Part shown: one piece after another, positions 857 through 12,434 of the stretch | Numbering within the stretch: the stretch's first letter is position 1 | Layout: every line of letters starts with the position of its first letter | Program-made: the position numbers and the translations under genes | Assembly: GCA_028288395.1 (NCBI GenBank) | Contig: JAQBNV010000349.1 | Span: 1 to 13,325, forward strand | Source: Adhaeribacter sp. | GTDB lineage: Bacteria; Bacteroidota; Bacteroidia; Cytophagales; Hymenobacteraceae | Direction of reading: 5' to 3' | DNA: 13,325 nt | Notes under the pieces: model-generated | What the model saw: only the letters and a program-made list of their open reading frames with translations | Database searches by the model: none | What the model was told of the DNA's origin: nothing

Positions 857-2053
857 TCATTCCGCACTGCTTAATGCGGCCGATCTTTCCTGAAGTTTCT
901 GCAGATGCCGTACGGCGGCTATTACTAGATTATTATCCATGGTATGAACTTCCACGCCTTTTCCAATCCGTTCGAGCAGCATGATGGTTAGCTTGCCGCC
1001 CAGGTGCTCACGGAACTCCTGCAAGCCATGCAGTAAACTATCCGGGTGCGAAGCATCCTCCAGGTGTCTATCCAATTCCGGTACAAATAAATCGAAGCCC
1101 AAAGTCCGGATTACCGTTAATATCTGGGTGAGTTCATCGGCCGAAAGCCGGCCGGTTAAGTGCGAATACACGGAGTCGAGGGCAATACCCAGCGAAACGG
1201 CTTCGCCGTGCCGAATCTCGAAATTGCTCAACGGCTCCAGTTTGTGTGCCGACCAATGACCGAAGTCCAGCGGACGCGACGAACCTTGTTCAAACGGGTC
1301 GCCGCCGGCAATATGCTGCAGGTGCATTTCGGCGCACCGGTAAATCAGGTATTGCATCGCCGGCATGTCGCGCTGCGCCAGCTTCACGGCGTTTTCCTGA
1401 ATAAACCGGAAAAAGGTTTCATCTTTGATCAAGCTTACCTTAATGGCTTCCGAAATACCGGAACGCCAATCGCGATCGTTTAGGGTAGTTAAAAAATTAA
1501 AGTCGTTCAGAACAGCATAAGGCGGGGCAAAATTGCCGAGGAAATTTTTCTTGCCGAAAGCATTTACACTGTTTTTAACGCCAATACCAGAATCGTTCTG
1601 TGATAAAACAGTAGTAGGAATCCGGATATGCCGGATTCCGCGGTGGGCAATAGATGCTACGTACCCAACCATATCCAGCAGAGCGCCGCCCCCAATGGCT
1701 ACCATATAGGAGTGCCGGTCGATGCCAAAATTATTAACTGCTTCCAGGAGTTGCTGAACCAGCTCAGGCTGGTTCTTACACTGCTCGCCGCCCGGCACTA
1801 CGGTTAAATCGCCGTTTAAGGCCAATACATTGGCGTGGTTCAGGAAATAATTTTTCAGATCGGTTTGCAGGTTCGGGTGCGCTTCCTGCACCCCGCTATC
1901 AATTACAAAAAAAACCTTGCGTTGGCCCTCGCCGCCATCTCCGGCAATAACATCGCGGAAAAGGGGATTAGCAGGATCAAATAAACCTTCGGTAAAATGA
2001 ACAATATAAGAAAATGGGACCTGGAACTTCTGGTGGATAGAGGATATATGCAT
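857..2053 (-). CDS. eboD: EboD: 3-dehydroquinate-synthase-like cyclase of the ebo cluster
   Basis: This 398-residue protein belongs to the sugar-phosphate cyclase (DHQS) fold and is somewhat longer than AroB (about 360). Seen: the NAD-binding AIGGGALLDMVGY (residues 119-131), RIPTTVLSQNDSG (144-156), K160, GKKN (167-170), and candidate zinc ligands E202, H266 (in FGHWSAHKLE) and H282 (in RHGEAV). The spacing of the two histidines fits AroB. The VGGKT signature of true AroB is replaced by IGVKNSVN (157-164), which argues for a divergent substrate. Context after eboA, eboB and eboC makes EboD the best name; in the family it is required together with the other Ebo proteins, but its reaction is not established. 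It starts at ATG 2053, with a TAACTTTG promoter-like box about 65 bases upstream. The stop TGA overlaps an ATG (ATGA), but the frame entered there is only 19 codons long, and no eboE follows. Confidence 0.87.
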   Translation of the reverse strand: MHISSIHQKFQVPFSYIVHFTEGLFDPANPLFRDVIAGDGGEGQRKVFFVIDSGVQEAHPNLQTDLKNYFLNHANVLALNGDLTVVPGGEQCKNQPELVQQLLEAVNNFGIDRHSYMVAIGGGALLDMVGYVASIAHRGIRHIRIPTTVLSQNDSGIGVKNSVNAFGKKNFLGNFAPPYAVLNDFNFLTTLNDRDWRSGISEAIKVSLIKDETFFRFIQENAVKLAQRDMPAMQYLIYRCAEMHLQHIAGGDPFEQGSSRPLDFGHWSAHKLEPLSNFEIRHGEAVSLGIALDSVYSHLTGRLSADELTQILTVIRTLGFDLFVPELDRHLEDASHPDSLLHGLQEFREHLGGKLTIMLLERIGKGVEVHTMDNNLVIAAVRHLQKLQERSAALSSAE

Positions 2054-2116
2054 TTAAATATTCAGCGCTTAAATAAAATCTGGCTTACAGGCTTTTTTTA
2101 ATATTTCCAAATTGGT

Positions 2117-2124
2117 CAAAGTTA
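2117..2124 (-). promoter_or_regulatory. Candidate -7 box (TAACTTTG) ahead of eboD
   Basis: On the minus strand this reads TAACTTTG, a full match to the Bacteroidota -7 consensus TAnnTTTG, 63 bases before the eboD ATG. No convincing TTTG/TTG -33 element is seen at the usual distance. It could give eboD its own transcript within the 134-base gap after eboC. Confidence 0.35.
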
Positions 2125-2187
2125 GCCTTATTATTCTTTTTGTTAGTTATAAAAGTAAATATTTTAGGTTAACCAAAAGGGATTTAA

Positions 2188-3099
2188 TTAAGTAACGGCA
2201 AATTGCTTGGCGAGGTATCGCGAAATAGGGAATAATGCCAAAACCAGCAGCCCGTATACCCAACCGGCAAAACCGGCGGCAATGGCGGCATCCAGCATAA
2301 TCAAGGCTATTACGCCTGCTTTTACGGCAAACCGGATGTGCTGGGCTTCCAACGTTTTGATGGCTTTTATCAGGGGTGGAAATATAAGGTAAGTAAACAA
2401 TACGAGGAAAGGCATGGCGTACAAAATCTGGTATTGCTGCAGGCGCATCAGGGACAGAATGCCGCCAATTACTAGCAGGTACAAAAACAAAGCGCCCAGC
2501 AATATTTTTTTATTGCCCCCGTGTACTTCGCCGCGGCTAATAACGGTAATGGCCGCGATGTAAACGATGGGGATTATTGCCAGGTACCAGTAAACGCTAA
2601 CGGCCGCTGGCACCGCGCTCATGCCTAATAATAAATTGCCACCCCGGCAGGCACCCATATTTAGGGGGCCCAAAATGGAGTGGTGTTTGCCAATGGCATT
2701 GTAGATTAATGCCAGCATAGCTACCACCACGGCCAGTACACCGCTCAACACCGAAACCTGAAATGCGGCTCCGATACCCAATATTAATAAAGCTGCGCCC
2801 AGCATGGTAGCGCTCAACCGGCTGGCCGCCCCGCTGGGTATGGGGCGCTCGGGCCTTTCTACCCGGTCCAGGTCAGCGTCGAATACATCATTAAAAACTA
2901 CACCGCCGCCGTACAAACCAATGGTGGCGGCAATAAGCCAGTACAAAAGCTGTAGCTGCGGGTGAGCCGCTGAAAAACCACCTTGCTGCACCAGCAGGCC
3001 AACCGAACCCGAAGCGGCAAAACCCAGCATAATATCGGCGATGGCCGTAATAATATTGGCCGGCCGCATAAGTACCAGGTGCGCGTAAATTCGGTTCAT
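2188..3099 (-). CDS. eboC: EboC: UbiA-like membrane prenyltransferase of the ebo cluster
   Basis: A 303-residue, strongly hydrophobic protein with about eight or nine predicted membrane helices. Seen: LMRPANIITA near the N-terminus (10-19), the first Asp-rich motif NDVFDADLD (N70, D71, D74, D78) followed by RPERPIPSG (82-90), and YNAIGKHHSILGPLNMG with ACRGGNLLLG (133-159). Family knowledge: UbiA enzymes use the first Asp-rich loop with Mg2+ to bind a prenyl diphosphate and attach the prenyl group to an acceptor inside the membrane. The second canonical Asp-rich loop is not present as DxxxD; the matching region reads SRGEVHGG (188-195). This, plus the eboB/eboD neighbours, points to EboC rather than UbiA, MenA or chlorophyll/heme farnesyl-type enzymes. 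Acceptor and prenyl donor are unknown. It starts at ATG 3099, preceded by a 9-bp inverted repeat in the leader. Confidence 0.87.
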   Translation of the reverse strand: MNRIYAHLVLMRPANIITAIADIMLGFAASGSVGLLVQQGGFSAAHPQLQLLYWLIAATIGLYGGGVVFNDVFDADLDRVERPERPIPSGAASRLSATMLGAALLILGIGAAFQVSVLSGVLAVVVAMLALIYNAIGKHHSILGPLNMGACRGGNLLLGMSAVPAAVSVYWYLAIIPIVYIAAITVISRGEVHGGNKKILLGALFLYLLVIGGILSLMRLQQYQILYAMPFLVLFTYLIFPPLIKAIKTLEAQHIRFAVKAGVIALIMLDAAIAAGFAGWVYGLLVLALFPISRYLAKQFAVT

Positions 3100-3115
3100 G
3101 TTGTGGAGTTATACC

Positions 3116-3142
3116 ATTTAGCAATGCACAAATTTGCTAAAT
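3116..3142 (-). promoter_or_regulatory. Perfect inverted repeat in the eboC leader
   Basis: The arms ATTTAGCAA (3116-3124) and TTGCTAAAT (3134-3142) are perfect 9-bp complements around a 9-base spacer, ending 16 bases upstream of the eboC ATG on the minus strand. The position fits an operator or an RNA hairpin in the leader. It has no T-tract, so it is unlikely to be a terminator. Function is inferred only. Confidence 0.45.
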
Positions 3143-3229
3143 AATCGCTTATATTCCGCACTATTTACCGGTTGTTTAAAAGATATAATGCGATCGGCCG
3201 GATGTTTTTTAAATTTATTTCATATTTAT

Positions 3230-4144
3230 TTAACGAATGATCCGCGAATCTTTTTCGCCGGTCTCGATGCTCGGGGTCTGACCACCGCGCAGAATAGAAT
3301 TGCCGGAGTATTTAAGGCTCTGGTCGATGCCCGTAGCCTCCAGCCAGTCGCTTTCCTGCATCTGACCACTCTGGCCAAATGCGTCCAGGGCATTCTGGTA
3401 AGATACCATCCGCACCGACTCCTCGGAAATGCCGCGTTCCAGCATTAAATGAGCCGTTTTGGGTACCGCCAGCGGGTCGCTGATTCCCCAGTCGGCAGCG
3501 CTGTTGATCATGATACGCTCGTGGCCGTATTGGCGCACTATTTCGGTCATGCGTTCATTGCCCATTTTGGTATGGGGGTAAATGGTAAACGCCGCCCAGA
3601 AGCCGCGGTCCAGCACATCTTTTACCGTTTCTTCGTTGTTATGGTCAACAATTACCAGGCTAGGGTCCAGGCCATGTTCCAGCGCCACCTCCATGCTTTT
3701 AATCGTGCCTTTCCTTTTGTCACGGTGTGGGGTATGAATTTGCACCGGCAGCCCTACTTCTTTGGCCAAATCCAGTTGCAAGCGGTAATATTTGTCTTCA
3801 GCGGCAGTCTGGTCGTCGTACCCGATTTCGCCTACGCCTACAACGCCTTCTTTCAGCACAAACAACGGCAATAATTCCATTACTGCTTCGGCGAGGGCTT
3901 CGTTGTTTGCTTCCTTGGAGTTTAACCCGATGGTGCAATAATGTTTAATGCCAAACTGACTCGCCCGGAAGCGTTCAAAACCAATCAAATGGCTGTAATA
4001 ATCTTTAAATGTACCAGCTTCGGTGCGGGGCTGACCCATCCAGAAAGCAGGTTCAATCATGGCCACTACCCCGGCTTTACGCATGGCTTCGTAATCGTCG
4101 GTGGTGCGGGAAATCATGTGGACGTGGGGATCTATGAATAGCAT
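3230..4144 (-). CDS. eboB: EboB: TatD-family metal-dependent hydrolase of the ebo cluster
   Basis: A 304-residue TIM-barrel protein of the TatD/amidohydrolase type. The complete metal-ligand set is visible: H7 and H9 in DPHVH, E106 in GVGEIGYD, H137 in QIHTPH, H168 in VDHNNEE, and D218 in SAADWG. It is longer than E. coli TatD (about 260), with an extra C-terminal tail of polar residues after about residue 275. Family knowledge: TatD proteins hydrolyse phosphodiester or related bonds using divalent metals. The natural substrate of EboB is unknown. It has no signal peptide, so it is cytoplasmic. Its place between the EboA and EboC genes supports the name. It starts at ATG 4144, 94 bases after the eboA stop; no clear Shine-Dalgarno or TAnnTTTG box lies in that AT-rich gap. 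Confidence 0.88.
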   Translation of the reverse strand: MLFIDPHVHMISRTTDDYEAMRKAGVVAMIEPAFWMGQPRTEAGTFKDYYSHLIGFERFRASQFGIKHYCTIGLNSKEANNEALAEAVMELLPLFVLKEGVVGVGEIGYDDQTAAEDKYYRLQLDLAKEVGLPVQIHTPHRDKRKGTIKSMEVALEHGLDPSLVIVDHNNEETVKDVLDRGFWAAFTIYPHTKMGNERMTEIVRQYGHERIMINSAADWGISDPLAVPKTAHLMLERGISEESVRMVSYQNALDAFGQSGQMQESDWLEATGIDQSLKYSGNSILRGGQTPSIETGEKDSRIIR

Positions 4145-4238
4145 ATTTTTAGTCGGTTTAATATTTTATTAGGTAAAGCTGTCTTATTAAGTTGTCTAAA
4201 CAGGTTAAGTCCAGAATATTAAAATGGTAAATCGAGAA

Positions 4239-5108
4239 TTATTTGTAAGCGCCTTCTCCAACCGTTTGCCAATTAAAATCCCCTGCTTGTAATTGCTTTT
4301 TCAACTCCGGGAATTTAGAAAGTAAATCCTTTGCTTCCGGTAAATTACTTTCAGCTAAAGCCAGTGCGGCGGCTTCTTTCTGAATATTTTCGGGACTTTG
4401 GAGCAATCGCTGGATATCTTTAATATTTTCGGCAGAAATAAACGGCCCTACCAGACGCCATAGTTCGGGCGTGAGGGTGCGGCCGGCGGCCCAGCGTTCG
4501 TGGGCGTAATCAATGGCAATATTGGCTAACGCTTCGTTGCGCCGGGCATCCAGGCCATAAATTCGATACAAGGGCCGGACATTAAATATCGATTTCAAAA
4601 CCAACTGGTTCCAGGCTTCTTCCGGCAGGTAATCGTGCGGATAAGGATTATTTAGGGCAATGGCATCAAAAACCTGGGTCATGGTAGTGCGCACGCCTTC
4701 GGCCGCCCGCATAACGTGGCGTTCGGGGTAGGGTAGCAGGGGCAGGCTGGCGTACAGCGTAACTAATTCACTTAAATCGGCGGTACTGAAAACTTTATTC
4801 AGGATGGCTACATATTGTTCGGGCGTTTCGTGCGGAATAGCCCGTACCAACAGTGCTCGCGCCACCTGGTCAGTAGTCCAGTTTTGCGGGTTAAATCCGG
4901 CACGCAGATTTTCCGCTTCCTGCTGATCGGTTTCCGATAGAATAATCGGCTTTTTGCCGGTATAACGGGGTGCTACGCTAAAAGCCAGGTAAAAATCTTT
5001 CTCGGTTTTGAGGTTATCGAGTTGTTTTTGCAGCCAGGTTACGCCCGGTGCCGGTAACTGGGGTAAGAGTATTTTTAGTAAATAATCGCTTATGTTTGCT
5101 GCTGGCAT
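4239..5108 (-). CDS. eboA: EboA: helical protein of unknown activity, first gene of the ebo cluster
   Basis: A 289-residue, largely alpha-helical soluble protein without signal peptide or membrane segments. It matches the EboA-domain family by the conserved blocks FSVAPRYTGK (43-52), YGLDARRNEAL (184-194) and DYAHERWAAGR (200-210), followed by PELWRLVGPF. The C-terminal third (about 218-275) looks like short helical hairpins rich in Ala, Leu and Glu, reminiscent of HEAT-like packing. No catalytic motif is recognised, and a scaffold or binding role is possible. It is followed by eboB, eboC and eboD in the usual order. It starts at ATG 5108. The 201-base gap to the preceding oxidoreductase gene contains a terminator-like hairpin and a TATATTTG box, suggesting that eboA begins its own transcript. 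Confidence 0.84.
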   Translation of the reverse strand: MPAANISDYLLKILLPQLPAPGVTWLQKQLDNLKTEKDFYLAFSVAPRYTGKKPIILSETDQQEAENLRAGFNPQNWTTDQVARALLVRAIPHETPEQYVAILNKVFSTADLSELVTLYASLPLLPYPERHVMRAAEGVRTTMTQVFDAIALNNPYPHDYLPEEAWNQLVLKSIFNVRPLYRIYGLDARRNEALANIAIDYAHERWAAGRTLTPELWRLVGPFISAENIKDIQRLLQSPENIQKEAAALALAESNLPEAKDLLSKFPELKKQLQAGDFNWQTVGEGAYK

Positions 5109-5309: not shown

Positions 5310-6455
5310 TTAAGCAATCTTTACTTCTTTGCCGCCTTCCCGGATCGACTTGTAAATAGCTTCTATCACTTTTAAATCGCGTAGGCCTTCTTCGCCGGGT
5401 ACGCTGGTAGGTTTATTCGTCTGGATACAATTTGCAAAATCATCCATTTGCGCTTCAAAGTGATCAATTTGCGGAAAATTCATTTCGCCTTTGCTCGTGC
5501 GGCCTTTAATACCGCCGTAGCCATAAGCCGGACGTAATTCCATCCATCCTTTTTCCGCCGAAGCAAACAAGCGTTCGGTGCTGGCGGCATAACTGGTGGT
5601 GCAGGAGGCCGTGGCCCCGCCCGGAAATTTCATTTGCCAGAATATCGTTTCGTCTACTTCTTTAAACTTAACCGGGTCGGTTTTAAATTCCTGGGCCGTT
5701 ACGGTAAGGGGCTCTTCACCAATTACGTAACGACAACCCTGCAACGCATAAATGCCTACATCCATTAAAGCGCCCCCGCCGGCTAAGTCTTTTTTCAAGC
5801 GCCATTGGTTCGGATCGCCTATCCGGAAGCCATCAGCCGCTTCTACTAATTTAACCTGGCCAAAAACTTTTTCCTGGCCTAAACGCTTCATCTCTAAATT
5901 ATGCGGCTCAAAGTGCAGGCGGTAACCAATAGCCAGCTGTTTGCCGGCTTTTTTGCAGGCAGCAATCATCTCTTCGCACTCTTTTACGGTATTTGCCATC
6001 GGTTTTTCGCAAAGCACATGTTTGCCTGCTTTGGCCGCCCGGATGGTAAACTCATGGTGCATGGAGTTGGGCAACACAATATAGACCAGATCAATATCCT
6101 TGTTTTTGGCAATGGTATCGAAGTTCTGGTAGTTATAGATATTCTTTTTCGGGATGTTATATTTTTTAGACCATTCTTCGGCTTTGGCGGGCGTACCGGT
6201 TACAATGCCGGCCAGGTAGCAGTTTTTGGTTTTTAACAGCGCTGGTGCAATCTGGTTTTTGCTCAGGCTGCCCAACCCAACCAAAGCCACCCCTAGCTTT
6301 TTATTTTTGTCTTGTGCGGCGTTTTGGGTGGTGGCTGATAAAAAAGGGAAAGCCGCAGTGGCCAAAGCGGCCGCTCCCAAACCCGTTGACAAGTTTTTAA
6401 AGAACCGGCGGCGGGAATTATCTGGCCCGCTGCCGGAAGAAAAATATTTTCTCAT
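5310..6455 (-). CDS. Tat-exported Gfo/Idh/MocA family oxidoreductase (glucose-fructose oxidoreductase-like)
   Basis: A 381-residue protein. Residues 1-48 form a twin-arginine signal: SRRRFFK (14-20), then a hydrophobic Ala/Leu-rich core to about residue 41. The NAD(P)-binding fold begins at ALVGLGSLS (57-65). EKP at 150-152 carries the family's conserved Lys151, and GGGALMDVGIY (226-236) is very like that of Zymomonas glucose-fructose oxidoreductase. Such enzymes transfer hydride on sugars or cyclitols with a nucleotide that often stays tightly bound, which suits a folded, Tat-exported periplasmic enzyme. The substrate cannot be read from sequence. It starts at ATG 6455, only 12 bases after the stop of the NIPSNAP lipoprotein gene, so the two are almost certainly co-transcribed. 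The 201-base gap downstream to eboA holds a possible terminator, so membership of the ebo transcript is uncertain. Confidence 0.9.
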   Translation of the reverse strand: MRKYFSSGSGPDNSRRRFFKNLSTGLGAAALATAAFPFLSATTQNAAQDKNKKLGVALVGLGSLSKNQIAPALLKTKNCYLAGIVTGTPAKAEEWSKKYNIPKKNIYNYQNFDTIAKNKDIDLVYIVLPNSMHHEFTIRAAKAGKHVLCEKPMANTVKECEEMIAACKKAGKQLAIGYRLHFEPHNLEMKRLGQEKVFGQVKLVEAADGFRIGDPNQWRLKKDLAGGGALMDVGIYALQGCRYVIGEEPLTVTAQEFKTDPVKFKEVDETIFWQMKFPGGATASCTTSYAASTERLFASAEKGWMELRPAYGYGGIKGRTSKGEMNFPQIDHFEAQMDDFANCIQTNKPTSVPGEEGLRDLKVIEAIYKSIREGGKEVKIA

Positions 6456-6467
6456 CAGTTGATGGTT

Positions 6468-7283
6468 TTATTTAATGGGCGAGTAATCGGTAGGCTTCAT
6501 GAATACAGATTCTACCTTGGTGGTAAGAGAGCCGCCTCCTTTTACTTCGGATGCCTGGCGGGCTTCTATCCAAACCGGATCAGCCCGGAAAGCCTTAAAG
6601 GAGGCTTCGCCAGCGGCTTGGTCCTGGTGAGCCAGCAGGTAAATCAGCATATCTTTTTTTGTTTCTTTATCGCGGTCAGTAGCGCGCCAGTAACCAATAT
6701 TGGTCATGCCGTGCTTCTCAAACAGTTTAACAGTATGGTCGCGGAAGCGAGCGTGAAGGTTTTCGATGTTGTTGGGCGATGCCGTATAGGTGCGTAACTC
6801 AAAGGTGCGGGGCGGATTTTTACTTTCCTGTTTCAGGGCCGGCGAGTAATCTGTAGCTTCCAGGTAAAGTGTTTCTACTTTGCTTACCAGTTTGCCATTG
6901 GCTTCAGAGGCCTTGGCTATTGCCTGCCATTCGGGATCGCTGCTGAAATTTTTCCAGGATTCATCGCGGGCTTGCCGGCTCGGGTAAGCTAGTAAATATA
7001 TTATTTTATTCTCGGGATTATCGATGGGTACCCAATAGCCAACATTTACCATACCGTGTTTCGCAAAAACGCGGGTGGTATTATTCCGGAAGCGGGCATG
7101 CAAATCATCCAGTTTACCGGGAGCGGCATAGTAACTCCGCATTTCATAAAACGGATTTTGCGCCAGGTTGGCCGCTGCCGGAGCAGCAGTAGTAGCCGAC
7201 TGGTCTACACCCGGGCTTGATGATGTTTTACAACCCAGCAGCAGGGAACTTAAAAATAAAATGGAAAAGACCAGGTTTTTCAT
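6468..7283 (-). CDS. Lipoprotein with two tandem NIPSNAP domains
   Basis: A 271-residue predicted lipoprotein. A short hydrophobic signal ends in the lipobox LLGC, with Cys18 as the lipidated residue, followed by a Ser/Thr/Ala-rich tether (19-43). Two NIPSNAP (ferredoxin-like dimeric alpha-beta) domains follow, at about 45-145 and 161-265. They are clear internal duplicates: FYEMRSYYAAPGKLDDLHARFR with KHGMVNVGYW, and FELRTYTASPNNIENLHARFR with KHGMTNIGYW. A tandem pair can mimic the dimer that single-domain NIPSNAP proteins form. No catalytic function is established for the family. Its gene precedes the Tat-exported oxidoreductase by 12 bases, so the two likely act together in the periplasm. 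It starts at ATG 7283. The 136-base AT-rich leader has several near matches to TAnnTTTG but no full one. Confidence 0.9.
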   Translation of the reverse strand: MKNLVFSILFLSSLLLGCKTSSSPGVDQSATTAAPAAANLAQNPFYEMRSYYAAPGKLDDLHARFRNNTTRVFAKHGMVNVGYWVPIDNPENKIIYLLAYPSRQARDESWKNFSSDPEWQAIAKASEANGKLVSKVETLYLEATDYSPALKQESKNPPRTFELRTYTASPNNIENLHARFRDHTVKLFEKHGMTNIGYWRATDRDKETKKDMLIYLLAHQDQAAGEASFKAFRADPVWIEARQASEVKGGGSLTTKVESVFMKPTDYSPIK

Positions 7284-7419: not shown

Positions 7420-8154
7420 TCAGATCAGGCTAAAATAGGCAATACCAGCAGCAGCGACCTGGATGGTTAAATTGTCGAGGCCATGGTTGCTCACGGCTTC
7501 TACGGCGGCGCTGCCCAGGCCACAGGCCACTGCGGTAGCAATGGCCTGTGGCCCGGAGTAACCAGCTAAATACAAGCCGGCAAATGCGACCGCCGTGCTC
7601 ACCACTGCTACCGCCGCCGAGCCCTCCAGGCTCCGTTGGGCGGGCACCCCCATCAGCGATGGTACTGCATATCGGTGTTTGCCCCACCGTGTGCCTATCG
7701 GTTCGCCCACCGCATCGCCCCAGCCGCCCACCAGGTAACCGATAAAAGAAAACTTTGCGAAAAAAATATTTATAAGCACGCCTCCCAAAGCAGTGGTAAA
7801 TAAGGGTACTAATATGAAAAAGGTGCGGTAAGGCCTGTCGGTTTCCCGAGCCAGTGCTTCGTAAAAAACAAAACCTTCGCCAATCAGTACGGCGGCCAGG
7901 ACAAAAATACTTACAATGCAGCCAAATAAAACTACCAGTGAGAGGCCAAACCGGTACTGGAAAATTCCGGCCGTGGTAAATATGAGAAAATGAAAAATTT
8001 TGCGGGTATAGGGAGTTTTTACGCTCCGGTACTTTTTGAGGTAGCAAACCAGGATGGCCACCAGCAGCACGTAAATAAAAATGAGGGGACTTAAAAGCAG
8101 GATTTCGGCCTTGCTGGGAATGGCCTTAACTAGAAAATCTTCGATTATACCCAA
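7420..8154 (-). CDS. Phytol/dolichol kinase-like integral membrane protein (CTP-dependent polyprenol kinase family)
   Basis: A 244-residue protein with roughly six or seven membrane helices. Family landmarks of the VTE5/SEC59/CDP-diglyceride synthetase group are visible: TRKIFHFLIF with RK at 51-52 and His55; GGWGDAVGEPIG followed by TRWGKHRY (143-162) with Asp147; and RSLEGS (174-179). Known members phosphorylate long-chain isoprenoid alcohols such as phytol or dolichol, usually with CTP, at the membrane. The exact alcohol is not predictable here. The frame has no early ATG; the TTG at 8154 (L/M-GIIEDF) is used as the start because it precedes the first helix by about 15 residues. Another non-ATG start slightly upstream cannot be excluded, since that frame stays open. 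It is the first of seven minus-strand genes leading to eboABCD, with 136 bases before the next gene. Confidence 0.8.
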   Translation of the reverse strand: MGIIEDFLVKAIPSKAEILLLSPLIFIYVLLVAILVCYLKKYRSVKTPYTRKIFHFLIFTTAGIFQYRFGLSLVVLFGCIVSIFVLAAVLIGEGFVFYEALARETDRPYRTFFILVPLFTTALGGVLINIFFAKFSFIGYLVGGWGDAVGEPIGTRWGKHRYAVPSLMGVPAQRSLEGSAAVAVVSTAVAFAGLYLAGYSGPQAIATAVACGLGSAAVEAVSNHGLDNLTIQVAAAGIAYFSLI

Positions 8155-8423: not shown

Positions 8424-8456
8424 TTGCGGTTATTATGGTGTTATTATAGGTTTTGT

Positions 8457-11400
8457 ATGCAAAAACGTTTACCCGATAATTTTAAATTTTTTATTTTAAT
8501 AGGCGCTTTTCTTTCCTTTACTCTTTTTGCTTCCACGCCGGTTCACGCTCAGAATTCATCTAACAAAGGAAAAGATTTTTGGGTTGCCTATACGGGCCAT
8601 ATCGATAATTTGTTATCCCGGATGTTCCTGTACCTGACTTCTGATGTGGCAACTACCGCGACGATAACCATTGGCGGCGGTGCCCCTCAAACGGTTAATG
8701 TGGCAGCAAATGCGGTTACCGTGGTGCCCATCGATGGCAACCAGGCTTATGTGGGTTCTTCGGAGGTGGTAGAACGAAAAGGGATTCACGTGGCGGCGCA
8801 GAGCCCCATTGTTGTTTACGCCCATATTTTCCGGAGCGCCCGGTCGGCAGCTACCATAGTATTGCCTACGGCCACGATGGGCCGCGAATATTATACGCTT
8901 AATTTCAATCAATCTCTGCCGCTGGTAAATGATCCGAACCGATACTCGGAGTTTACTGTTATTGCCACCGAAGATAATACCACCGTTCAGATTACACCGG
9001 CTCAGATTACCCGGAACAACCGGGCGGCTAGCACCCCTTTCAAAGTTAAATTAAATGCCGGCGAAGTGTACCAGGTGCAGTCCGTGATAGACTTAACCGG
9101 CAGCCACATTACCACCAACGTTCCCGAAAATATTACCTGTAAGAAAGTAGCGGTTTTTTCCGGCAGTACCTGGACGGCTTTTGGTTGTGCGGGCGCCAAC
9201 GGCGGAGATAACCTGTATCAGCAATTGTATCCCCTGAGTTCCTGGGGTCGGAATTTTGTAACGGCGCCGCTCATCGACCGGCATTTTGAAGTTTATCGGA
9301 TATTGGTGGGGGAAGATAATACCACGGTTACGGTAAATGGCTCTACGGTCAGCGCCAACGGGGTACCGCTCCAGAATCCCTACGCAAAAGGATCGATTAT
9401 TCAGTTTCAGAGTACCCAGGGGAATATTATTAATGCCGATAAAGGTATTTCAGTTGCACAATACCAGATTTCCCAAACCTGCGATCCGCGCAATGGGCCG
9501 GATATTAATAACCCATTCGTCCCCGGCGACCCCGATATGGTTATTCTGAACCCGGTAGAACAAACCGTAACCAGTACCACTCTTTATTCCGCGCTTCAAA
9601 ATCAAACCAACCCGCCCACTCGTATTTCGCAGCATTTTATTAATGTGGTAATGAAAAGCGAGGATGTGGGTTCTTTCCGGATCGACGGTAATAGGCCTAA
9701 GGCCGCTTTTGTGCCCATTGCTAATTCGGGTTATTCTTATCTGCAGGAAGATGTAACAGGTTCTTCGCTCAATCAGCCTACCCACAACCTGGTAGCCGAG
9801 GGTGGCTTTAATGCGGTCGCTTACGGATTTGGCCCCGTAGAATCTTATGCTTACTCGGCGGGAGCGAACGTAAAGGATCTTACCAAAAATATTACTCCCA
9901 ATACCACTACGGGTACCGAAACGGGCTGCGTGGGTACCACCGTAAGTTTTACAGGTAATTTTCCGTATAAACCCATTAAAATATTGTGGGATTTTGGCGA
10001 TGGCACTCCCGTTTACGAAGAGACGGATATAAGTAAAATTGTGCAGATTTCGCCGACCGCTTTTGCCATAAAATCACCGGATCGGGTGTACCCCAACCCG
10101 GGCAACTATAACCTGAAACTGATTGTTACCCGATCCAATTCCATTGACTGCGATTCGCAGGACGAAATCGTGTATAATTTCACCGTGAATCCCAACCCGG
10201 TAGCGGCTTTTAATTTTACGACCACTTGTTACCTCGATTATACAGCTTTTACCGATGCCTCAACTTCCGAAGGCGGCAACAGCTTAAAAAAATGGAGCTG
10301 GAATTTTGGTGATCCGGCCTCGGGTAGCCAAAATATAGCTACAGACGAAAACCCAAAACATCTTTTTTCGGCCCCCGGTGAATATCGGGTAAAACTGACC
10401 GTTTCGAACAACGGCGGCTGTACTGACACCCTCTCTAAAAAAGTAATACTTTATCCGAAGCCGAAAGCCATTTTTAGCCTGAACTCTGTATGCGAAGGAC
10501 TGGCCGCTACCTTTACCAACGGGAGTACCATCTCGGCAGGTAACATGGTGGCCTGGGAATGGAAATTTGGCGACGGCGCTACTTCTACCGACCGAAACCC
10601 TACCCACATCTACCAACAAGCTGGCAATTACCGGGTGCACCTAAAGGTAACCGCCGACCAGACCTGCACCGATACGCTTTCCAAAGGTATTACCATTTAC
10701 CCTAAACCAAAAGTCGCTTTCTCCCTGCCTGATATCTGCGTGCGGGATGTAGCCGTTTTTACAAATACTTCGGCGATACCGGGAGGTGGCAAAATGACCT
10801 ACAAATGGAATTTTGGCGATGGCGGTACCTCTACGGATCAGAATCCGAGTCATAAATATGCAGCGGAAGGCGTTTACCCGGTTAAACTGGAGGTGACATC
10901 CGCCAACGGTTGTGTTAGTAGCCTGGTTACCGAGTACACCGTAAATGCGGCCGTTCCGCGGCCCGACTTTACCTCCCGGGATTATTGCCAGAAAGATGGC
11001 GTTAAATTTACTGATGCCAGTACCATACCTTTTGGTAAAATATTAAACTGGCGCTGGGATTTTGGCGATGGCGCCACCTCTACCGAACAAAACCCTACCC
11101 ATATATACGCCCAGTCTGGTTCTTATACCGTAAAGTTAACCGTTGCTTCCGGTATCTCTTGTCAGGAAACCGTGAGTAAAGAAATAACGGTATTCCCCAA
11201 TCCCACGGCTGCTTTTACCACGGCCAATGTTTGCGTGGATGAAACAGTAGTGCTCACCGAAACGTCTGCCATAGTGGGTGGAACCATTACGGCTTATACC
11301 TGGGACTTTGGCGATGGCAGCACCGCTAATACCCGGCAGCCCACTTATAAATACCGCACACCCGGCACTTATACCATTAAATTAACCATAGAAGGAGCCA

Positions 11401-12434
11401 ATAAGTGTATCGACCAGATTACTAGGCAAATTGTGGTTAGTCCCAAGCCTACGGCTTCCTTCAATGCTAATAATTTATGCGAAAGAGATGCCGTCGCCTT
11501 CACCGATGCTTCGACGGTTAGCAGCGGCAGCATTAGTTCCTGGCGTTGGGAATTTGGTGATGGGGGTACCGCCAGTCAGCAAAACCCCAGCCACACTTAC
11601 CAGACCGCCGGTACTTATACGGTTAAATTAACGGTAATAACCAGTGCCGGGTGTCAGGATATTATTTCCAAGACCTTGGTAATCGGGGTAAAACCACAGG
11701 CGGCCGCCGGTCCCGACCAGGTAAACTTATGCGGGGTAACGAGCACAGCTTTAGGCGCTACCATACCGCCGGCAGGTACCGGTACCTGGAGCATTGTAAG
11801 TGGAACCGGTGGGAGCATTAGTAATGCCAGCCAGCCCAAAGCCACCTTTTCGGGCCGTCCTGAGGAACTGTATACCCTGCGCTGGACCGTTAAAAATACT
11901 ACCTGCCCCGATGCATTTGATGAGGTACTGGTTAAATTTAATACCATCCCGACCGTTGCGGCCGGCCCAGATGTAGAGATTATAGATGGCCAAAGTTATA
12001 CCATGAAAGGCAGCGGCCAGGGTAACTTGCTATGGACGCCGGCTACCGGACTCGCCAATGCTACTACGGCTACAGCCGTAGTTACACCCAGCGAAACTAC
12101 TATTTACCGGATAACGGCTACCACGTTGGCGGGCTGCACCAGTTTTGACGAAATGACCATCCGGGTATTACCCAAACTAAGAATTCCGAACGCATTTTCG
12201 CCTAACAACGACGGCACCAACGATACCTGGGTTATTGGCGGCATAGAAGAATACCAGCTGGTTTCTATCGAGGTATTTGACCGGTGGGGCAGCCGGGTGT
12301 ACGAAGGTGGTTACAATACAACCTGGGATGGGATGCGGAACGGAAAAGCTTTGCCGATGGCTACTTATTATTATGTTATCAATCCCAACAACGGACATAA
12401 ACCAGTGGTTGGCAATGTGTCTATCGTTAAATAA
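8457..12434 (+). CDS. Secreted multidomain protein: IgGFc-binding-like region, seven PKD domains, type B (gliding motility-associated) C-terminal sorting domain
   Basis: A 1325-residue type IX secretion substrate. ATG 8457 is preferred to the upstream in-frame TTG (8424) because it places a standard signal peptide at the N-terminus (K3 R4, hydrophobic 11-25, cleavage after VHA at 31). NKGKDFWVAY (36-45) opens a beta-rich region to about 455 that resembles the bacterial IgGFc-binding-like N-terminal module. Seven PKD domains follow, with WDFGDG-type motifs whose Trp lie near residues 511, 615, 702, 784, 867, 949 and 1031; the last five are spaced at 82-83 residues. Each has one Cys near its start and one near its end. 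Two AGPD-type Ig-like modules (about 1080-1240) lead to the sorting domain (about 1240-1325): RIPNAFSPNNDGTNDTW, then EVFDRWGSRVYE. Family knowledge: such proteins are exported by the type IX system and act as surface adhesins or cell-surface filaments. The ligand is unknown. A PorP/SprF gene follows directly. Confidence 0.93.
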   Translation: MQKRLPDNFKFFILIGAFLSFTLFASTPVHAQNSSNKGKDFWVAYTGHIDNLLSRMFLYLTSDVATTATITIGGGAPQTVNVAANAVTVVPIDGNQAYVGSSEVVERKGIHVAAQSPIVVYAHIFRSARSAATIVLPTATMGREYYTLNFNQSLPLVNDPNRYSEFTVIATEDNTTVQITPAQITRNNRAASTPFKVKLNAGEVYQVQSVIDLTGSHITTNVPENITCKKVAVFSGSTWTAFGCAGANGGDNLYQQLYPLSSWGRNFVTAPLIDRHFEVYRILVGEDNTTVTVNGSTVSANGVPLQNPYAKGSIIQFQSTQGNIINADKGISVAQYQISQTCDPRNGPDINNPFVPGDPDMVILNPVEQTVTSTTLYSALQNQTNPPTRISQHFINVVMKSEDVGSFRIDGNRPKAAFVPIANSGYSYLQEDVTGSSLNQPTHNLVAEGGFNAVAYGFGPVESYAYSAGANVKDLTKNITPNTTTGTETGCVGTTVSFTGNFPYKPIKILWDFGDGTPVYEETDISKIVQISPTAFAIKSPDRVYPNPGNYNLKLIVTRSNSIDCDSQDEIVYNFTVNPNPVAAFNFTTTCYLDYTAFTDASTSEGGNSLKKWSWNFGDPASGSQNIATDENPKHLFSAPGEYRVKLTVSNNGGCTDTLSKKVILYPKPKAIFSLNSVCEGLAATFTNGSTISAGNMVAWEWKFGDGATSTDRNPTHIYQQAGNYRVHLKVTADQTCTDTLSKGITIYPKPKVAFSLPDICVRDVAVFTNTSAIPGGGKMTYKWNFGDGGTSTDQNPSHKYAAEGVYPVKLEVTSANGCVSSLVTEYTVNAAVPRPDFTSRDYCQKDGVKFTDASTIPFGKILNWRWDFGDGATSTEQNPTHIYAQSGSYTVKLTVASGISCQETVSKEITVFPNPTAAFTTANVCVDETVVLTETSAIVGGTITAYTWDFGDGSTANTRQPTYKYRTPGTYTIKLTIEGANKCIDQITRQIVVSPKPTASFNANNLCERDAVAFTDASTVSSGSISSWRWEFGDGGTASQQNPSHTYQTAGTYTVKLTVITSAGCQDIISKTLVIGVKPQAAAGPDQVNLCGVTSTALGATIPPAGTGTWSIVSGTGGSISNASQPKATFSGRPEELYTLRWTVKNTTCPDAFDEVLVKFNTIPTVAAGPDVEIIDGQSYTMKGSGQGNLLWTPATGLANATTATAVVTPSETTIYRITATTLAGCTSFDEMTIRVLPKLRIPNAFSPNNDGTNDTWVIGGIEEYQLVSIEVFDRWGSRVYEGGYNTTWDGMRNGKALPMATYYYVINPNNGHKPVVGNVSIVK
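9900..11690 (+). repeat. Tandem PKD-encoding repeats
   Basis: Seven PKD units are encoded in tandem; from the third onward they recur about every 246-249 bases. Short near-identical DNA is shared between units: the stretch coding for FGDGATST and NPTHIY in units 3 (around 10565) and 5 (around 11058) differs at only a few bases. Unit 2 departs from the pattern, with FGDPASGSQN in place of FGDG and an insertion after it. Confidence 0.85.

Follow-up and report, generated by a model that had tools for sequence, protein, structure and literature searches.

The eboABCD genes of the window

The stretch of DNA analysed here, called the window, is the 13,325-nucleotide contig JAQBNV010000349.1 (C232) of a fragmented Adhaeribacter assembly (GCA_028288395.1; 681 contigs, 78.6% complete), and the minus strand of its positions 857-5108 carries four consecutive genes that the initial annotation had read, from the letters alone, as eboA, eboB, eboC and eboD. 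The open reading frames (ORFs) and the family scores of their products confirmed both the positions and the assignment: the region is a genuine eboABCD in the canonical order A-B-C-D, with all four frames uninterrupted and with intergenic gaps of 94 bp (A-B), 130 bp (B-C) and 134 bp (C-D).

eboA, 4239..5108, minus strand: 289 aa, predicted all-helical (HEAT-like) protein
eboB, 3230..4144, minus strand: 304 aa, TatD-like metal-dependent hydrolase fold
eboC, 2188..3099, minus strand: 303 aa, UbiA-superfamily membrane prenyltransferase
eboD, 857..2053, minus strand: 398 aa, sugar phosphate cyclase superfamily, non-AroB by score and residues

The ebo operon eboABCDEF described from Bacteroidota, Cyanobacteria and eustigmatophyte plastids contains these four proteins with identical order and orientation (Yurchenko et al. 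2016, PMC5133447). That study described ebo from seven phyla of bacteria and two plastid genomes of algae, with Bacteroidota the most represented phylum among the matches, so that the Bacteroidota host, correctly pointed out earlier, comes as no surprise. The window is thus a true ebo cluster of a known kind.

Comparison with 80 named EboC-bearing loci gave the order ABCDEF in 47 cases (including three with a Gfo/Idh match in the stretch and one with EboA in two pieces) and DABCEF in 16, the remaining 17 being incomplete, dispersed or truncated at contig ends; most of the 80 loci, which come from several phyla, show the same ebo neighbours. The window proteins share 49-73% identity with the EboC matches of the 80 loci, 63-88% with EboB (74 loci), 54-76% with EboD (68 loci) and 34-61% with EboA (73 loci, one 27% fragment excluded), and when the relatives of the window genome are combined with the named loci the ranges become 63-93% for EboB and 54-88% for EboD.

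EboC was the most clear-cut of the four. Eighteen NCBIfam models matched it at E up to 0.1, of which only the EboC model NF035940 was over its own cut-off (405 bits, 155 over the cut-off of 250; next-best model 135.5), and none of the other 17, including UbiA, ChlG and other named prenyltransferase models, reached its cut-off. The residues N70, D71, D74 and D78, together with S188, E191, V192 and G194 of a second region, are invariant in 19 aligned EboC sequences and at least 97% conserved among 97. UbiA enzymes usually have an Asp-rich second region, unlike EboC with its S188-x-x-E191-V192-x-G194.

EboA passed the domain model NF035938 (168.7 bits, cut-off 50) and stayed under the cut-off of the longer family model NF035937 (274.7 bits, cut-off 320). 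The longer model was also missed by EboA of the ABCDEF operon of Hymenobacter sp. BT188 (285.3) and of another Adhaeribacter locus, L057 (275.9), and was passed by two cyanobacterial EboA proteins (357.2 and 373.4). The miss in BT188 and the cyanobacterial passes indicate that the shortfall of the window protein probably reflects lineage divergence.

EboB passed the Pfam family PF01026 (TatD_DNase; 59.7 bits, cut-off 27) and missed the TatD exonuclease model TIGR00010 by a wide distance (33.6 bits, cut-off 206), its nearest solved relative being AF_1765 (3guw, E 1.8e-23). All six TatD metal ligands had been claimed for this protein. Five of them (H7, H9, E106, H137 and H168) are indeed in register with AF_1765, but the sixth, D218, lies two residues past the corresponding Asp in the alignment. 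All six are at least 97% conserved in 89 EboB sequences, as is the motif D218-W219-G220 within the stretch of residues 214-220, and the shifted ligand may mark a changed metal site.

EboD scored best with NF004852 (587.7 bits, cut-off 333), a model that also ranks first for a cyanobacterial EboD (610.4 bits), and remained under the cut-off of the aroB model TIGR01357 (228.2 bits, cut-off 305). A separate AroB is encoded on contig C485 of the same genome (311.1 bits), from which EboD is distinct. The alignment identity of EboD was 28.5% with this AroB (347 columns), 32.3% with a segment of the solved 3-dehydroquinate synthase (DHQS) 6lk2 and 32.9% with a segment of ValA (4p53). Active-site positions are given here in A. 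nidulans numbering. All 83 EboD sequences retain the equivalents of D119, K152, N162, E194, K197, H271, H275 and H287; K250 is replaced by His in 83 of 83, R264 by Ser in 79 and Ala in 4, and N268 by Asp in 83 of 83. The AroB of the window genome carries Lys, Arg and Asn at the three substituted positions, and ValA has Met, Arg and Asp there, with Pro at H275. Judged by these positions, EboD is predicted to differ from standard DHQS and from ValA-type enzymes alike, in agreement with the separate EboD clade published in 2016 (PMC5133447), and its fixed residues speak against 3-deoxy-D-arabino-heptulosonate 7-phosphate (DAHP) as the substrate. The residue signature is new in this analysis. Under the broader and rather unlikely proposal for the pathway given in the last section, EboD would be a sugar phosphate cyclase of a new type, with the signature H/S/D/H at K250/R264/N268/H275.

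The Pfam names alone (DHQ_synthase, UbiA and TatD_DNase) would also suit a housekeeping AroB, UbiA/MenA and TatD that adjoin by chance and were misread as ebo, and so would the fact that EboB is the only TIGR00010 match found in the 78.6%-complete assembly; the missing second match is put down to assembly completeness, which is an assumption. Better scores for AroB, UbiA/MenA and TatD models had been named beforehand as the outcome that would speak against ebo, and they did not occur: no such NCBIfam model was over its cut-off and the EboC cut-off was passed. With a separate AroB in the genome and the same neighbours recurring in most of the named loci across phyla, chance adjacency is hardly credible, and this candidate was rejected as refuted by the profile scores.

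A six-gene set kept at two loci

In the operon described in 2016, eboE and eboF follow eboD (PMC5133447), whereas in the window genome they are detached. Contig C58 of the assembly carries eboE as an ORF (489.3 bits, cut-off 250), and beside it, in the order E-F, the start of eboF (first 38 codons, 76% identity) runs off the contig edge. The ABCDEF-type adjacency is therefore absent here, since eboE and the eboF start lie on another contig, and the window is one half of a split six-gene ebo set that is present in the genome. The earlier description of a four-gene ebo cluster was right in that eboABCD is real and incomplete in that these genes are half of a set.

Since neither eboE nor eboF adjoins eboD in the window, the four genes could be taken for a decaying remnant that has lost both. 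This is very improbable: eboE is open on C58 with eboF starting beside it, both genes are present in the seven other Adhaeribacter genomes, and eboA-D are uninterrupted.

The separation of eboABCD from eboE is found in all eight Adhaeribacter genomes examined, that of the window included. The two loci are on different contigs in three genomes; in four they share a contig, at distances of about 0.35, 0.73, 2.1 and 4.3 Mb, and in the remaining one (G006) they lie on opposite strands with about 10 kb between them. In the seven genomes other than that of the window, eboF adjoins eboE. The order ABCDEF is seen in six genomes with ebo genes that belong to three other genera of the family; genome G034 and the named loci of Hymenobacter, Pontibacter and Rufibacter also have it. 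The split in Adhaeribacter is already known and is not a new finding, as section 3.2 of Yurchenko et al. names Adhaeribacter aquaticus, of the same genus as the window, as having eboEF separate from the rest (PMC5133447). This paper was the only one returned for Adhaeribacter together with an ebo term, in a literature search outside which most subscription journals and all preprints lay.

EboC and EboE over their cut-offs co-occur: among 39 relatives (the window genome included) the 17 genomes with one are also those with the other, and the same holds for 25 of 296 genomes spread over the phylum. As they are non-adjacent in 10 of the 17 relatives, linkage alone is no explanation for the co-occurrence, which favours a shared function. 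Adhaeribacter, with the set kept as two loci, may suit testing its steps separately.

Other arrangements were seen outside the genus. In genomes G028 and G027, from two other families of the same order, eboC and eboE are each isolated (loci L050, L065, L071 and L075), with no other ebo match within roughly 20 kb. In genome G213 (loci L096 and L115) the EboE match starts about 160 bp past the EboC match, leaving no space for eboD between them, similar to the ABCEF case reported for Leeuwenhoekiella (PMC5133447). Contigs of two metagenome-assembled genomes, one from Planctomycetota (L172) and one from SAR324 (L182), carry ebo clusters ordered ABCDEF and ABCEF, respectively. The three Planctomycetes of the 2016 study are described as having no ebo clustering (PMC5133447), and misbinning is possible for both contigs because of their metagenomic origin.

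What the ebo set may make

In Nostoc punctiforme, deletion of eboA, eboB, eboC, eboE or eboF each leaves the scytonemin monomer in the cytoplasm, demonstrating that every one of these homologues is required to make scytonemin and that they are jointly needed for transfer of the monomer (Klicki et al. 2018, PMC6282210). The initial annotation was right to link the window to this work and to note that scytonemin genes are missing, none being present among the window ORFs looked at. The Nostoc system differs from the window in working with scytonemin genes and in having eboD nearby in the opposite direction.

A second known system, the prenyltransferase UbiA-297, is EboC itself, encoded within an ebo cluster and in the same phylum as the window. 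The enzymes of Maribacter, Zobellia and Algoriphagus farnesylate 8-hydroxyquinoline-2-carboxylic acid (8-HQA), and that of Maribacter also farnesylates quinaldic acid (Amiri Moghaddam et al., PMC9235831). These activities were observed in vitro and by feeding E. coli. The earlier statement that Bacteroidota have no known product does not hold for the farnesylated 8-HQA formed by three EboC enzymes in vitro, but stands for the physiological product.

The reading preferred here, with a probability of about 45%, is that the ebo genes together produce a membrane factor, prenylated and cyclitol-like, which lets an aromatic metabolite reach the periplasm. EboD would act on a sugar phosphate that is not DAHP, probably on a heptulose phosphate, and cyclise it to a cyclitol-like head group, which EboB and EboE would modify; EboC, in the inner membrane, would attach an isoprenoid, EboF would remove a phosphate, and EboA might be a helical scaffold that holds the enzymes together. 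By analogy with the Nostoc deletions, the prenylated product would serve as a membrane helper or carrier for a small aromatic, indole- or quinoline-like compound crossing to the periplasm.

Several observations weigh against such a factor. The order of the steps and the role of EboA are guesses, and the helical matches of EboA may reflect only a common arrangement. Direct prenylation of aromatics, not of a cyclitol, is what the UbiA-297 assays suggest (PMC9235831). In the Nostoc study, no lipid-conjugated monomer was detected, and the deletion set comprised eboA, eboB, eboC, eboE and eboF without eboD (PMC6282210); the ebo papers considered here report no isolated ebo product. Three of the 80 named loci have eboC and eboE without eboD in the stretch covered, and no TatD other than EboB was found with TIGR00010 in the incomplete assembly. 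Regarding co-occurrence, eight of the ten unlinked genomes belong to one genus and so do not count as ten independent events, and regarding the history of the split, two intact Hymenobacter-like clusters fall among the split Adhaeribacter ones. Matches to tryptophan 2,3-dioxygenase (TIGR03036, none over the cut-off) turned up in 16 of 25 genomes with ebo and in 118 of 271 without it (Fisher p 0.059), a weak trend that neither supports nor excludes kynurenine as the source of the aromatic compound.

A possible, although on balance improbable, alternative is that the product is a secondary metabolite that is prenylated and secreted, such as a quinoline or indole carrying a farnesyl group, and that the transport defect in Nostoc is indirect. 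The farnesylation of 8-HQA by all three assayed EboC enzymes, and of quinaldic acid by that of Maribacter, is in keeping with this proposal, as is the EDB cluster of Pseudomonas fluorescens, which is said to contain the full ebo cluster and is reported to yield indoles repelling C. elegans (Zhou 2022, via the review PMC9655573). The finding that all five Nostoc single mutants halt at the same intermediate weighs against it (PMC6282210), and a kynurenine-type source is not general, as 9 of the 25 ebo-bearing genomes are without a TIGR03036 match.

There is also a slim chance that a cyclitol-isoprenoid is the end product itself, with a protective role as put forward by Yurchenko et al. (2016), and not a transport helper. 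EboD shares the Asp at the N268 position with the heptulose-phosphate cyclase ValA, and a prenyltransferase belongs to the same set; however, EboD has His at H275 in place of the Pro of ValA and is also unlike ValA at K250 and R264, and the single deletions in Nostoc show a transport-like phenotype (PMC6282210).

Genes upstream of eboABCD in Adhaeribacter

Three further genes lie upstream of eboA on the same strand.

7420..8154, minus strand: VTE5/SEC59-like (phytol kinase- or polyprenol kinase-like) membrane protein, a label based on its relatives and a weak match in structure
6468..7283, minus strand: NIPSNAP-domain protein with a lipoprotein-type signal (PF07978, 109.1 bits, two stretches; lipobox LLLGC by eye)
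5310..6455, minus strand: Gfo/Idh/MocA oxidoreductase with a twin-arginine-type N-terminus by eye (PF01408, 104.2 bits)

The kinase-like gene is located upstream of the NIPSNAP gene and eboABCD in all eight Adhaeribacter genomes examined, and the NIPSNAP gene is directly upstream of eboA in seven of them and next but one in the window genome. Neither gene lies beside any of the 80 named ebo loci elsewhere. Their presence across the genus is new in this analysis, and the literature search described above returned no co-mention of ebo with phytol kinase or polyprenol kinase, or with NIPSNAP.

The label of the kinase-like protein comes from the names of its relatives, which are also found in other phyla, and from a weak structural match to CdsA; no Pfam family (E up to 10) and no NCBIfam model (E 0.1) matched it in searches whose HMMER filters discard most weak matches. 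The names are those of the phytol kinase VTE5 and the farnesol kinase FOLK (PMC9782597), and the likeness to these enzymes is one of names. The prenol-kinase-like protein may supply a phosphorylated isoprenoid to EboC, and the lipoprotein may act outside the inner membrane, on the compound once exported. A broader proposal, tentative and rather unlikely, is that the ebo pathway of Adhaeribacter gained an isoprenoid-alcohol kinase and a surface lipoprotein, with the VTE5-like product providing a prenyl (mono)phosphate for EboC, either directly or counterbalanced by the phosphatase-like EboF. The recurrent tie between eboABCD and the prenol-kinase-like gene gives a starting point for finding the isoprenoid donor, and the kinase reading, if true, names the donor branch of ebo chemistry.

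The Gfo/Idh/MocA gene sits between the NIPSNAP gene and eboA, 12 bp past the former, and is an extra gene compared with A. aquaticus. It had no match in the eboABCD loci of the seven other Adhaeribacter genomes, and its membership in the ebo unit is doubtful. Weak same-strand Gfo/Idh matches (30%) were observed upstream of eboA in loci L142 and L208.

The remaining features of the window are on the plus strand. Positions 2-445 encode the C-terminal part of a SusD/RagB protein (PF07980, 129 bits), convergent with eboD. Positions 8424-12434 encode a 1336-aa PKD-repeat-like protein with a C-terminal end that resembles, by eye, those of gliding or type IX secretion proteins, and from about 12435 a PorP/SprF-like protein, also recognised by eye, is truncated where the window stops. 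Genomes G001 and G002 (loci L057 and L056) likewise have relatives of the two proteins beyond the kinase gene.

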